Origin: Desulfovibrio piger ATCC 29098
Lineage (GTDB): Bacteria; Desulfobacterota; Desulfovibrionia; Desulfovibrionales; Desulfovibrionaceae
Length of the DNA stretch: 64,000 nt
NCBI RefSeq assembly: GCF_000156375.1
Contig: NZ_DS996353.1
Coordinates: 21,368-85,367 of the forward strand
Reading direction: 5' to 3'
The position numbers were made by a program, and so were the translations under genes. The notes under the pieces were generated by a model, which ran no database searches, had not been told where the DNA came from, and saw only the letters and a program-made list of their open reading frames with translations. Shown here piece after piece: positions 52,041-63,388 of the stretch (position 1 is the stretch's first letter; every line of letters starts with the position of its first letter).

Positions 52041-54770
52041 ATGGAAACGAAAACGCTTGTGGTCAATGGTATTCCCCGTCAGGTCCTGGTGGATTCCGAC
52101 ACTCTTCTCGTTGACGTGCTGCGCAACCAGCTGCAGATCACCAGCGTCAAGGTCGGTTGCGGTCAGGGCCAGTGTGGTGCCTGCTCCGTGATCCTCGACG
52201 GCAAGGTCACCCGCGCCTGCATCGTCAAGATGCGCCGCGTGCCCGACCAGGCCCAGATCACCACCCTCGAAGGCGTGGGCACCCCCGCCAAACTGCATCC
52301 CCTCCAGGAATCCTGGATGTTCCACGGTGCGGCCCAGTGCGGCTTCTGCACGCCCGGCTTCATCGTGTCCGCCAAGGCCCTGCTGGACTCCAATCCCGCC
52401 CCCAGCCGTGAAGAAGTGCGCGACTGGTTCCAGAAACATCACAATATTTGCCGCTGCACCGGTTACAAGCCCCTGGTGGACGCCGTCATGGACGCCGCCG
52501 CCGTCATGCGCGGTGACAAGGACATCGAAGAGCTGCGCTACAAGCTGCCCGCCGACGGCCGCGCCTTCGGTTCGCGTCTGCCCCGTCCCAGCGCCCTGGT
52601 CAAGGTGACCGGTCTGGCCGAATACGGCGCCGACGCCGCCGTGCACATGCCGCCCGACACCCTGCACCTGGCCCTGGCCCAGGCCAAGGTCTCCCATGCC
52701 ATCATCAAGGGCATCGACACCTCCGAAGCCGAAAAGATGCCCGGCGTGGTCCGCGTGCTGACCCACAAGGACGTCAAGGGCAAGAACCGCATCACCGGCC
52801 TCATCACCTTCGCCGACAACAAGGGCGACGGCTGGGATCGTCCCATTCTCAACGATACCAAGGTGTTCCAGTATGGTGACGCCCTGGCCATCGTCTGCGC
52901 CGACAGCGAGGCCCACGCCCGCGCCGCCGCCGACAAGGTCAAGTTCGACCTGGAACTGCTGCCCGAATACATGAGCGCGCCCGAAGCCATGGCTCCCGAC
53001 GCCATCGAGATCCATCCCGGCACGCCCAACATCTACTATGAGCCCCACATCGAAAAGGGCGAGGACACCAAGCCCTTCTTCGACGATCCCGAAAACGTGG
53101 TGGTGGAAGACAGCTTCTACACCCAGCGTCAGCCGCACCTGAACATCGAGCCTGATGTGGGTTACGGCTACCTGAACGAGCAGGGCCAGCTGGTGATCCA
53201 CTCCAAGTCCATCGGCCTGCACCTGCATGCCCTGATGATCGCCCCCGGCCTGGGCGTGAAATTCCCCGAAGAGCTGGTCATGGTGCAGAACACCACCGGC
53301 GGCACCTTCGGCTACAAGTTCAGCCCCACCATGGAAGCCCTCATCGGCGTGGCCGTGCTGGCCACCGGCCGTCCCTGCCACCTGCGCTACAACTACCAGC
53401 AGCAACAGCAGTACACCGGCAAGCGTTCGCCCTTCTGGACCAAGGTGCGCATGGCCGCCAACAAGAAGACCGGCAAGATCGTGGCCATGGAGACCGACTG
53501 GACCTGCGACCATGGCCCGTACTCCGAATTCGGCGACCTGCTGACCCTGCGCGGTGCCCAGTTCATCGGTGCCGGTTACGGCATCCCCAACATCCGTGGT
53601 GACGGCCGCACCGTGGCCACCAACCACGCCTGGGGCGCGGCTTTCCGCGGTTACGGCGGTCCCGAGTCGGAATTCCCCTCCGAAGTGCTGATGGACGAAC
53701 TGGCCGAAAAGCTGGGCATGGATCCCTTCGACCTGCGCGAGCTCAACTGCTACAAGGAAGGCGATACTACGCCCACCGGCCAGAAGCCCGAGGTCATGAA
53801 CCTGCCCACCATGTTCAAGGCCCTGCGTCCCAAGTATGAGGCCGCCAAAGCCAAGGCCAAGGCGGAATCCACCGATGCCGTCAAGCGCGGCGTGGGCCTG
53901 GCCCTTGCCGTGTACGGTGCCGGTCTGGACGGCCCCGACTCCTCCGAAGCCTGGGCCGAACTGAACCCCGACGGCTCCGTGACCATCGGCAGCTCCTGGG
54001 AAGATCACGGCCAGGGCGCCGACTCCGGCGCGCAGTGCACCGCCCATGAGGCCCTGCGTCCCATCGGCCTGCCTGTGGAAAAGATCCGCCTGGTCATGAA
54101 CGATACCAGCAAGACCCCCAACTCCGGTCCTGCCGGCGGCTCCCGCTCCCAGGTGATGACCGGCAACGCCATCCGCGTGGCCTGCGAACAGCTGGTGGAA
54201 GCCATGCGCAAGCCTGACGGCGGCTTCTACACCTATGATGAGATGAAGGCCGAAGGCCGCGCCGTGCATCAGGACGGCAAGTGGACCGCCCCGGCCCGCG
54301 ACTGCGGCAAGAACTGCCAGGGCGAACCCTTCTGCTGCTACATGTACGGCCTGTTTATGGCCGAAGTGGCCGTGGAAGTGGCCACCGGCAAGACCAAGGT
54401 GGAAAAGATGACCATGGTGGCCGACATCGGCAAGGTGGTCAACCGCCTGCTCACCGACGGCCAGCTCTACGGCGGTATCGCCCAGGGCATCGGTCTGGCC
54501 CTCACCGAAGACTACGAGGACATCAAGAAGCACAGCACCATGGCCGGTGCCGGTATCCCCACCATCAAGGATATCCCGGACGACATCGAGCTCATCTACG
54601 TGGAGACCCCGCGTCCTGACGGCCCCTTCGGCGCCTCCGGCACGGGCGAGATCCCGCTGTGCGGCCCGCATCCGGCCATCATCAACGCCATCTACAACGC
54701 CTGCGGCGCTCGCGTGACCCATCTGCCCGCGTACCCCGAAAAGGTGTTGGCGGCCATGCCCAAGAAGTAA
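52041..54770 (+). CDS. mop: Molybdenum-containing aldehyde oxidoreductase (MOP)
   Basis: A xanthine-oxidase-family molybdoenzyme that oxidises aldehydes to acids and passes electrons through two [2Fe-2S] clusters. The 909-residue chain matches D. gigas MOP (907) throughout. The plant-type cluster uses Cys40, 45, 48 and 60 (GCGQGQCGACS). The second cluster uses Cys100, 103, 137 and 139 (CGFC, CRC). The large molybdenum part includes FGYKFSP, RYNYQQQQQYTGKRSP, AFRGYG and the catalytic Glu near 870 in FGASGTGEIPL. There is no FAD domain. D. gigas MOP carries the cytosine-dinucleotide form of molybdopterin. A TAGGAG ribosome site precedes the ATG. Confidence 0.97.
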   Translation: METKTLVVNGIPRQVLVDSDTLLVDVLRNQLQITSVKVGCGQGQCGACSVILDGKVTRACIVKMRRVPDQAQITTLEGVGTPAKLHPLQESWMFHGAAQCGFCTPGFIVSAKALLDSNPAPSREEVRDWFQKHHNICRCTGYKPLVDAVMDAAAVMRGDKDIEELRYKLPADGRAFGSRLPRPSALVKVTGLAEYGADAAVHMPPDTLHLALAQAKVSHAIIKGIDTSEAEKMPGVVRVLTHKDVKGKNRITGLITFADNKGDGWDRPILNDTKVFQYGDALAIVCADSEAHARAAADKVKFDLELLPEYMSAPEAMAPDAIEIHPGTPNIYYEPHIEKGEDTKPFFDDPENVVVEDSFYTQRQPHLNIEPDVGYGYLNEQGQLVIHSKSIGLHLHALMIAPGLGVKFPEELVMVQNTTGGTFGYKFSPTMEALIGVAVLATGRPCHLRYNYQQQQQYTGKRSPFWTKVRMAANKKTGKIVAMETDWTCDHGPYSEFGDLLTLRGAQFIGAGYGIPNIRGDGRTVATNHAWGAAFRGYGGPESEFPSEVLMDELAEKLGMDPFDLRELNCYKEGDTTPTGQKPEVMNLPTMFKALRPKYEAAKAKAKAESTDAVKRGVGLALAVYGAGLDGPDSSEAWAELNPDGSVTIGSSWEDHGQGADSGAQCTAHEALRPIGLPVEKIRLVMNDTSKTPNSGPAGGSRSQVMTGNAIRVACEQLVEAMRKPDGGFYTYDEMKAEGRAVHQDGKWTAPARDCGKNCQGEPFCCYMYGLFMAEVAVEVATGKTKVEKMTMVADIGKVVNRLLTDGQLYGGIAQGIGLALTEDYEDIKKHSTMAGAGIPTIKDIPDDIELIYVETPRPDGPFGASGTGEIPLCGPHPAIINAIYNACGARVTHLPAYPEKVLAAMPKK

Positions 54771-54788
54771 ATGGAACAATGACTGTCA

Positions 54789-54812
54789 GGGGGACCGGTC
54801 CGCCGGTCCCCC
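54789..54812 (+). terminator. Hairpin between mop and the downstream cluster
   Basis: A perfect 10-bp stem GGGGGACCGG / CCGGTCCCCC with a 4-base loop lies 19 bases past mop. There is no T-run. It may reduce read-through into the maturation genes or protect the mop 3' end. Confidence 0.5.
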
Positions 54813-62643: not shown

Positions 62644-62644
62644 C

Positions 62645-63388
62645 ATGGAGGGGCTCTGGCTGCTGCGTCACGGTTCTTTGCTGCCCAACCCGGAGCGGCG
62701 CTTTGTGGGCGCGCGCGACATCGCCCTGACCGAGGCGGGACGGGGACAGATACGGCAGGCCGCCCGGGCCCTGCTGGCGGAATGCGATGCGGCAAACGGG
62801 CTGCCGCCCTCTGCTGCCGCAGCCACCGGGCAGGGCAGACATGCGCAAACGGCGGTTGCAGAGGCAGCGGAGAGAGGGGCGTTACGAGAAGGGAGGACCG
62901 GCCAGTATGGCCCCTGTGTGCCGCAACACATCATCTGTTCGGATCTGGGCCGCTGCCGGGAAAGTGCGCGGCTGGTGCAGGACGTCTTTCGTGCCCGGGG
63001 CCATGCCGTAGATGTTTTTCCCGATGCGGGACTGCGCGAGATCTCGCTGGGGTTGTGGGAGGGCCTGACCATAGCCGAAGTGGAAGCCCGCTGGCCGGGC
63101 AGCCATGCGGCCAGGGGGACTGACATGGCGGGCTTCGTGCCGCCGCAGGGAGAGAGCTTTGCCGCAGTGCAGGCGCGCGCCATGGCTTGTGTGGAACGCT
63201 GGCAGGCCCGTTATCCCGGAGAATGTTTGCTGCTGGTCAGCCATGCGGGCGTGCTGCGTACCCTGCTGTGCCACTGGCTGGCCCTGCCGCTGGCCGAGGT
63301 GATGCGCGTCCCCCAGCACTATGCCTGCCGTATCTGGCTGCCGGGAAAGGAATTTTTGGGGGAAGAGACTTCCTTCAGCTGGCGCTGA
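62645..63388 (+). CDS. Histidine phosphatase family protein (CobC/phosphoglycerate-mutase-like)
   Basis: A 247-residue phosphatase. The phosphohistidine motif is LLRHGSLL (His9), with RRFVGARDIALTEAGRGQI (about 19-37), IICSDLGRCRESARLV (about 96-111), LREISLGLWEGLT (about 128-140) and the second catalytic His in LLVSHAGVLRTLL. It resembles CobC alpha-ribazole phosphatases. An insertion of about 45 residues (about 50-94), low in conserved residues, separates the first helix from the IICSDL strand. It begins 1 base after the previous stop and closes the cluster. A phosphate-removal step on the pathway product is likely. Confidence 0.83.
   Translation: MEGLWLLRHGSLLPNPERRFVGARDIALTEAGRGQIRQAARALLAECDAANGLPPSAAAATGQGRHAQTAVAEAAERGALREGRTGQYGPCVPQHIICSDLGRCRESARLVQDVFRARGHAVDVFPDAGLREISLGLWEGLTIAEVEARWPGSHAARGTDMAGFVPPQGESFAAVQARAMACVERWQARYPGECLLLVSHAGVLRTLLCHWLALPLAEVMRVPQHYACRIWLPGKEFLGEETSFSWR

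Follow-up and report, generated by a model that had tools for sequence, protein, structure and literature searches.

In the 64,000-nucleotide stretch of Desulfovibrio piger ATCC 29098 analysed here (contig NZ_DS996353.1, positions 21,368 to 85,367; hereafter the window), mop, the gene for a molybdopterin-dependent aldehyde oxidoreductase (MOP), is followed on the same strand by eight genes, among them those for the radical S-adenosylmethionine (SAM) enzyme TrsS, the methyltransferase TrsM, an adenylate-forming ligase, a flavoprotein and the 8-kDa protein DVU1557. An earlier note, made from the sequence alone, had connected this gene set with the oxidoreductase, and comparison across genomes bears out a functional tie between the two: their occurrence in Desulfovibrionaceae is nearly one-to-one, a single clade of TrsS holds the MOP-linked members, and XdhC and MoeA-like proteins are encoded in the clusters. 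We tentatively propose that enzymes of the locus core build a prosthetic group on Lys71 of the protein DVU1557 and that this group works with MOP, a reading that we hold as possible.

In a survey of 247 genomes of the phylum, TrsS was found in 30 and MOP of the NF045668 type in 24, with both in 23 (seven families); this tally includes one partial MOP and one partial TrsS, both below cut-off. Among 217 Desulfovibrionaceae genomes, 147 encode MOP, 143 TrsS and 141 both, counts that are not independent of phylogeny, and the six genomes with MOP only are incomplete or highly fragmented. Three candidates for MOP without TrsS (G324, G340 and G351) were rejected because the hits were split. As cases of TrsS without MOP, G399 and G433 were likewise rejected, MOP being present at a contig edge, and G411 was discounted, its contig beginning at the flavoprotein; G247 carries a different locus with tandem TrsS genes. 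A wider scan with one genome per species yielded 80 named loci from Desulfobacterota, Bacillota, Chloroflexota, Synergistota, Spirochaetota, alphaproteobacteria and others. Most comprise MOP, flavoprotein, DVU1557, methyltransferase, a C-GCAxxG-C-C (CGCA) protein, TrsS and ligase, often with XdhC, a nucleotidyltransferase (NTP transferase) and a phosphatase next, and the order from MOP to ligase is repeated in dozens of loci from several phyla, which excludes a chance arrangement. A tree of 115 TrsS-like rows gathers all 78 that have MOP, whether in the locus or in the genome, into one clade (96 rows from several phyla, 18 of them of undetermined MOP status), supported by a Shimodaira-Hasegawa-like approximate likelihood ratio test (SH-aLRT) value of 99; one row of this clade without a visible MOP, L163, comes from a metagenome-assembled genome whose contig is cut at the flavoprotein. 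Since one clade holds every MOP-linked row, the simplest reading is a single origin of the linkage, after which MOP and TrsS moved together. Mechanical co-inheritance alone was rejected as an explanation, because the linkage spans several phyla as well as genomes in which TrsS and MOP lie apart. Near the MOP-Trs cluster, ten loci (including L126, L130, L133, L136, L137, L139 and L146) carry a gene for a sigma-54-type regulator. Genes for a class V aminotransferase resembling cysteine desulfurase lie beside the Trs loci L095, L107, L143, L161 and L192 and perhaps provide sulfur to TrsS or to the molybdenum centre.

All 12 rows of a second kind of module, class II, fall outside the MOP-linked clade. 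The class II core consists of a dicluster protein, a small domain, DVU1557, methyltransferase, TrsS and ligase, and its neighbours are HGD-D-type dehydratase components, RACo with a B12 protein, or URO-D. Five genomes with class II or tandem TrsS loci gave no molybdenum hydroxylase match at E 1e-80, from which it follows that the core chemistry is not molybdenum-specific. B12-binding proteins with RACo, and URO-D family proteins, are encoded at L176:14303-16832, L184:1561-2733 and L190:7204-8409, a hint of corrinoid methyl transfer near Trs modules. Tandem copies of TrsS or TrsS-like genes were seen at L204 (the G247 locus), L164 and L107; those at L204 stand beside a ligase and an HGD-D-type protein in a genome without MOP, a third arrangement.

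The case for a carrier begins with the C-terminus of DVU1557. Only Lys71 and Glu65 are invariant, each in 94 of 94 unique sequences, and the lysine, which closes the terminal motif ExxLEDK, is exactly terminal in 89 of them and two residues from the end in the other five. Each cysteine, by comparison, is missing in 2 to 4 of the 94 sequences, and two archaeal fusions have lost all four. The earlier note had listed a CxxC carrier, and the family of DVU1557 is labelled a redox protein; a thiol redox carrier is unlikely given that the CxxC motif is not invariant while the terminal lysine is kept in every member, a pattern that favours a role for the lysine side chain and disfavours an essential redox role of the cysteines. 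Profile comparison relates DVU1557 to the YgiT zinc finger (HHalign 96.4%); with the YgiT finger model TIGR03831 (cut-off 20.2 bits) the window protein is unmatched at E 0.001, and class II relatives score 14 to 18 bits. Among the closest known systems is LysW, likewise a zinc ribbon and about as small, whose acidic C-terminal tail is invariant. LysW, however, ends in EDWGE and uses its terminal glutamate together with an ATP-grasp ligase, whereas DVU1557 has neither that ending nor a terminal glutamate, but an invariant lysine and an ANL-type ligase nearby. LysW was absent among the PDB and Foldseek matches listed.

The nearest solved structure to TrsS is the tetraether synthase (Tes, also GDGT-MAS, MJ0619) of M. 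jannaschii, 7TOL (profile E 1.8e-128), although TrsS reaches only 294 bits against the Tes family NF045702, under the curated cut-off of 450. The two enzymes share their domain plan and the ligand sets of the rubredoxin iron and of the N-terminal, SAM and C-terminal clusters. In Tes, the metal ligands bind a rubredoxin iron and three Fe4S4 clusters, with a labile methionine (PMC9433317); in TrsS, C16x2C19x20C40x2H43, C87x3C91x2C94-H97, C112x3C116x2C119 and C337/C444/C459 match them at aligned positions that are invariant or nearly so, and Met428 aligns with the labile Met439. At the C-terminal cluster of Tes, a bond is formed between a cluster sulfur and a substrate carbon, and the unusual ligand of this cluster was likened by the authors to that of lipoyl synthase (PMC9433317). 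With all four metal sites of Tes kept, TrsS is equipped for C-C coupling or C-S bonding on an unreactive carbon. In contrast to Tes, TrsS is encoded in operons with a ligase, a methyltransferase and a small carrier-like protein. The Pfam name HMPTM suggests pterin methylation, a reading that was rejected: the enzyme so named, MJ0619, later proved to couple carbons of lipids (PMC9433317), and the name is therefore not evidence for molybdopterin modification. TrsS is a published selenoprotein family (Haft and Tolstoy 2025, cited in PMC13188914), and the neighbourhood recorded for that family (NF045646) holds the same families as the window set. No selenocysteine was seen in TrsS of the window or of the examined loci, the window protein having cysteine and its gene no in-frame TGA. 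The window TrsS (58717-60177) also has a seven-residue insertion (VALPGGL region) that none of the 20 TrsS proteins aligned with it shares.

The flavoprotein ends in a domain of 93 residues (695-787) that is found in 94 loci and in class II is encoded by a separate gene directly upstream of DVU1557. Its AlphaFold2 model is confident (predicted local distance difference test score, pLDDT, 90) and resembles BrnT (Z 8.6) and many RelE/ParE proteins (Z 5 to 7), Z values near what a common arrangement alone gives; Foldseek returned E 0.07. Independently, HHalign of this domain with DUF4258 gave 85.3%, and the swapped profile pairs (DVU1557 with DUF4258, the domain with YgiT) about 1% or less. Where DUF4258 and YgiT genes are neighbours, DUF4258 comes first in 36 of 36 pairs, the same order as in the locus, and DUF4258-MqsA fusions have been catalogued among toxin-antitoxin modules (PMC11980606). 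Because a domain of predicted RelE/DUF4258 fold stands here in the known DUF4258-YgiT order, the modelled C-terminal domain of the flavoprotein probably docks DVU1557. The two are adjacent wherever both are found and fused in three loci (L205, L184 and L190). At the archaeal loci, the fusions (L184:2696-3184 and L190:8318-8869) join the dock to a Cys-free DVU1557-like part in which the terminal lysine region is kept. The likeness to the MqsR/MqsA-like DUF4258-YgiT pair extends to the profiles of both partners, the gene order and the predicted BECR/RelE fold of the first partner; in the locus, however, that partner belongs to an enzyme cluster, as the C-terminal domain of its flavoprotein, and a DNA-binding antitoxin domain is lacking. 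The two appear to be a toxin-antitoxin-like pair reused for docking, with no toxic activity implied.

The scheme that we favour was chosen as the simplest one using every conserved feature. Its carrier would be DVU1557; the ligase, a PaaK-like ANL enzyme whose gene is present in nearly all complete loci, would turn a small carboxylic acid into an adenylate and load it on the side-chain amine of Lys71. On the carried group, TrsS would form a radical C-C or C-S bond by means of its C-terminal iron-sulfur cluster and TrsM would add a methyl group, while the flavoprotein, gripping DVU1557 by its RelE-fold domain, would give or take electrons. Once complete, the carrier may partner MOP in the MOP-linked clade, most simply as the acceptor of electrons from this flavin-less enzyme, and the NTP transferase-HD protein, the phosphatase, the MoeA-like protein and, elsewhere, XdhC may serve the cytosine-dinucleotide cofactor of MOP. 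MOP is indeed without a flavin domain, and its natural electron acceptor is only putative (PMC10223205). The proposed arrangement recalls the lipoyl system (LplA, LipA, lipoyl domain and dihydrolipoamide dehydrogenase) in its logic, with an adenylating ligase, a carrier lysine, a radical SAM enzyme whose cluster is carbon-sulfur-capable, and a flavoprotein partner, but the carrier, ligase and TrsS of the locus belong to other families than the lipoyl proteins. In its most specific form the scheme is rather unlikely: DVU1557 would bear a new lipoyl-like redox group, made in place on the terminal lysine by ligase, TrsS and TrsM, would exchange electrons with MOP as its physiological partner, and would dock on the flavoprotein by way of a domesticated interface of the toxin-antitoxin type.

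Several observations weigh against the carrier proposal. The predicted structure of DVU1557 is poor (pLDDT 66) and its Foldseek hits are weak (E 0.12), and its terminal lysine could instead be a recognition tail. The C-terminal ANL subdomain of the ligase, with the usual catalytic lysine, is lost in 18 of 88 loci; these shortened ligases belong to Desulfovibrio and close relatives, the window included, where loading would need another route. The class II module occurs without MOP, so that the group cannot serve MOP alone. D. gigas flavodoxin accepts electrons from MOP in vitro, and a special acceptor is therefore not required. Finally, the M439A variant of Tes is still active, showing that the conserved methionine is not essential there (PMC9433317).

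It is also possible, if somewhat doubtful, that the trs enzymes make or insert something that active MOP needs, perhaps transiently or catalytically, leaving no visible mark. The near-obligate linkage across phyla and the presence of XdhC, MocA-like and MoeA-like genes for MOP maturation in the same cluster agree with such a role, as do hairpins after mop, which suggest lower expression of the trs genes than of mop. Other molybdenum hydroxylases nevertheless mature without trs genes, as is generally known for xanthine dehydrogenase, and genomes that lack any molybdenum hydroxylase match also carry this core. A protein of genome G261 is identical over 348 residues to the D. gigas MOP chain in the PDB, and its locus reads MoeA-like, mop, flavoprotein, DVU1557, methyltransferase, CGCA, TrsS, ligase, phosphatase. 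MOP from the native organism, solved at 1.28 Å, nonetheless holds ordinary molybdopterin cytosine dinucleotide (MCD) (PMC10223205), which argues against maturation by the module and makes a stable modification of the cofactor or of the MOP polypeptide unlikely, while leaving room for a transient or catalytic role. The suggestion of the earlier note that the module modifies the molybdenum cofactor or matures the enzyme is not sustained in this stable form.

A free small-molecule pathway is doubtful in turn. Here the ligase would make an acyl adenylate or thioester, TrsS and TrsM would elaborate it, and MOP would oxidise an aldehyde intermediate, with DVU1557 only as a structural subunit or a temporary scaffold, like LysW for lysine. 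The first gene of the cluster encodes an aldehyde oxidase, MOP, LysW sets a precedent for carrier assembly on the conserved tail of a small zinc protein (PMC10433800), and the differing enzymes of class II (HGD-D, corrinoid/RACo and URO-D) fit variable tailoring. Yet purified MOP oxidises simple free aldehydes, no recurring exporter or self-protection gene was found in the loci, and the invariant residue is a lysine, not the carboxylate of LysW. A catabolic module, which would break down an acid or aldehyde from the environment after activation by ligase and TrsS, with carboxylates fed in by MOP, is quite unlikely: some class II loci adjoin TRAP transporters, RACo and B12 proteins or 2-hydroxyglutaryl-CoA dehydratase-like genes, and ABC ATPase genes occur in 17 loci, but no transporter is conserved across class I and such radical chemistry would spend stoichiometric SAM, costly for bulk degradation. 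In a D. vulgaris fitness study, chlorate toxicity was tied to the tungsten aldehyde oxidoreductase DVU1179, not to mop.

As for the window itself, the list of open reading frames and a base-level reading confirm mop and, behind it, eight tightly packed genes on the same strand, with the stop/start junctions that follow from the coordinates in Table 1. Gene identities were taken from NCBIfam scores against curated cut-offs and from Pfam. Eight of the nine genes exceed their NCBIfam cut-offs, in agreement with the DVU1558-DVU1551-type set named in the earlier note; the phosphatase, which has no exact family, is alpha-ribazole phosphatase-like (125 bits against a cut-off of 162.9). The mop product is an orthologue of PDB 1dgj and 1sij/1vlb.

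Table 1. Features of the mop-trs locus, in window coordinates
Feature	Position	Strand	Basis
MoeA-like molybdopterin-binding protein	50949..51989	+	PF00994 79.6 bits
mop, molybdopterin-dependent aldehyde oxidoreductase	52041..54770	+	NF045668 1655 bits (cut-off 1100)
Two strong hairpins, mop/trs gap	54789-54812, 54832-54859	+	RNA fold -67.8 kcal/mol, z -5.33
Flavoprotein with Fe-S dicluster and CCG domain	54982..57345	+	NF045663 836 bits (cut-off 530); Fer4_20, Fer4_17, CCG
Flavoprotein C-terminal RelE/BrnT-fold (DUF4258-like) domain, proposed DVU1557 dock	57064..57342	+	Predicted fold, profile comparison
DVU1557, YgiT-like zinc ribbon, proposed carrier	57347..57562	+	NF045645 94.4 bits (cut-off 60)
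DVU1557 Lys71 codon, last residue, proposed attachment site	57557..57559	+	Invariant in 94 unique sequences
SAM methyltransferase TrsM, DVU_1556 family	57559..58263	+	NF045667 215 bits (cut-off 155)
C-GCAxxG-C-C protein, DVU_1555 family	58263..58724	+	NF045669 156 bits (cut-off 103); PF09719
TrsS, radical SAM enzyme, tetraether-synthase group	58717..60177	+	NF045646 539 bits, full length (cut-off 490)
AMP-forming PaaK-like ligase, DVU_1553 family	60164..61423	+	NF045666 381 bits (cut-off 300)
MocA-like NTP transferase with HD domain, DVU_1551 family	61405..62643	+	NF045665 363 bits (cut-off 315)
Histidine phosphatase	62645..63388	+	PF00300 149.5 bits

The eight genes had been described as fused to the aldehyde oxidoreductase locus. 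They do adjoin it, but the term is too strong, since 211 bases containing the two hairpins part them from mop, a gap that would allow a different expression level for mop. The MoeA-like gene lies directly upstream of mop, as it also lies beside mop in D. gigas and many other loci, and the unit therefore begins earlier than mop. This MoeA-like protein has an extra C-terminal Cys cluster ending in CPFGK and is retained beside mop in D. gigas; no XdhC is encoded in the 64-kb window. At the other end, the NTP transferase and phosphatase genes can be set apart from the other six: at least six genomes encode the NTP transferase but no TrsS, and several more have its gene at a distance from trsS, so the eight genes do not form the one complete pathway that had been envisaged. 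The two belong together, given a natural NTP transferase-HD-histidine phosphatase fusion directly after TrsS (L135:5618-7387), and they probably supply the cytosine dinucleotide cofactor.

No product of the Trs genes was found described in the literature searched, a search to which the primary TrsS paper was external. New here are the four-site match of TrsS to Tes, DVU1557 as a proposed carrier, the probable flavoprotein dock and the results on the MOP clade, some of which may overlap with ideas of that paper (Haft and Tolstoy 2025). A gene set inherited across phyla with MOP, a well-studied molybdenum enzyme, points to a cofactor or product not yet described. If the carrier proposal is true, the locus would add to the known prosthetic groups of proteins, put tetraether-synthase chemistry to a new use, and could explain the working partner of MOP.

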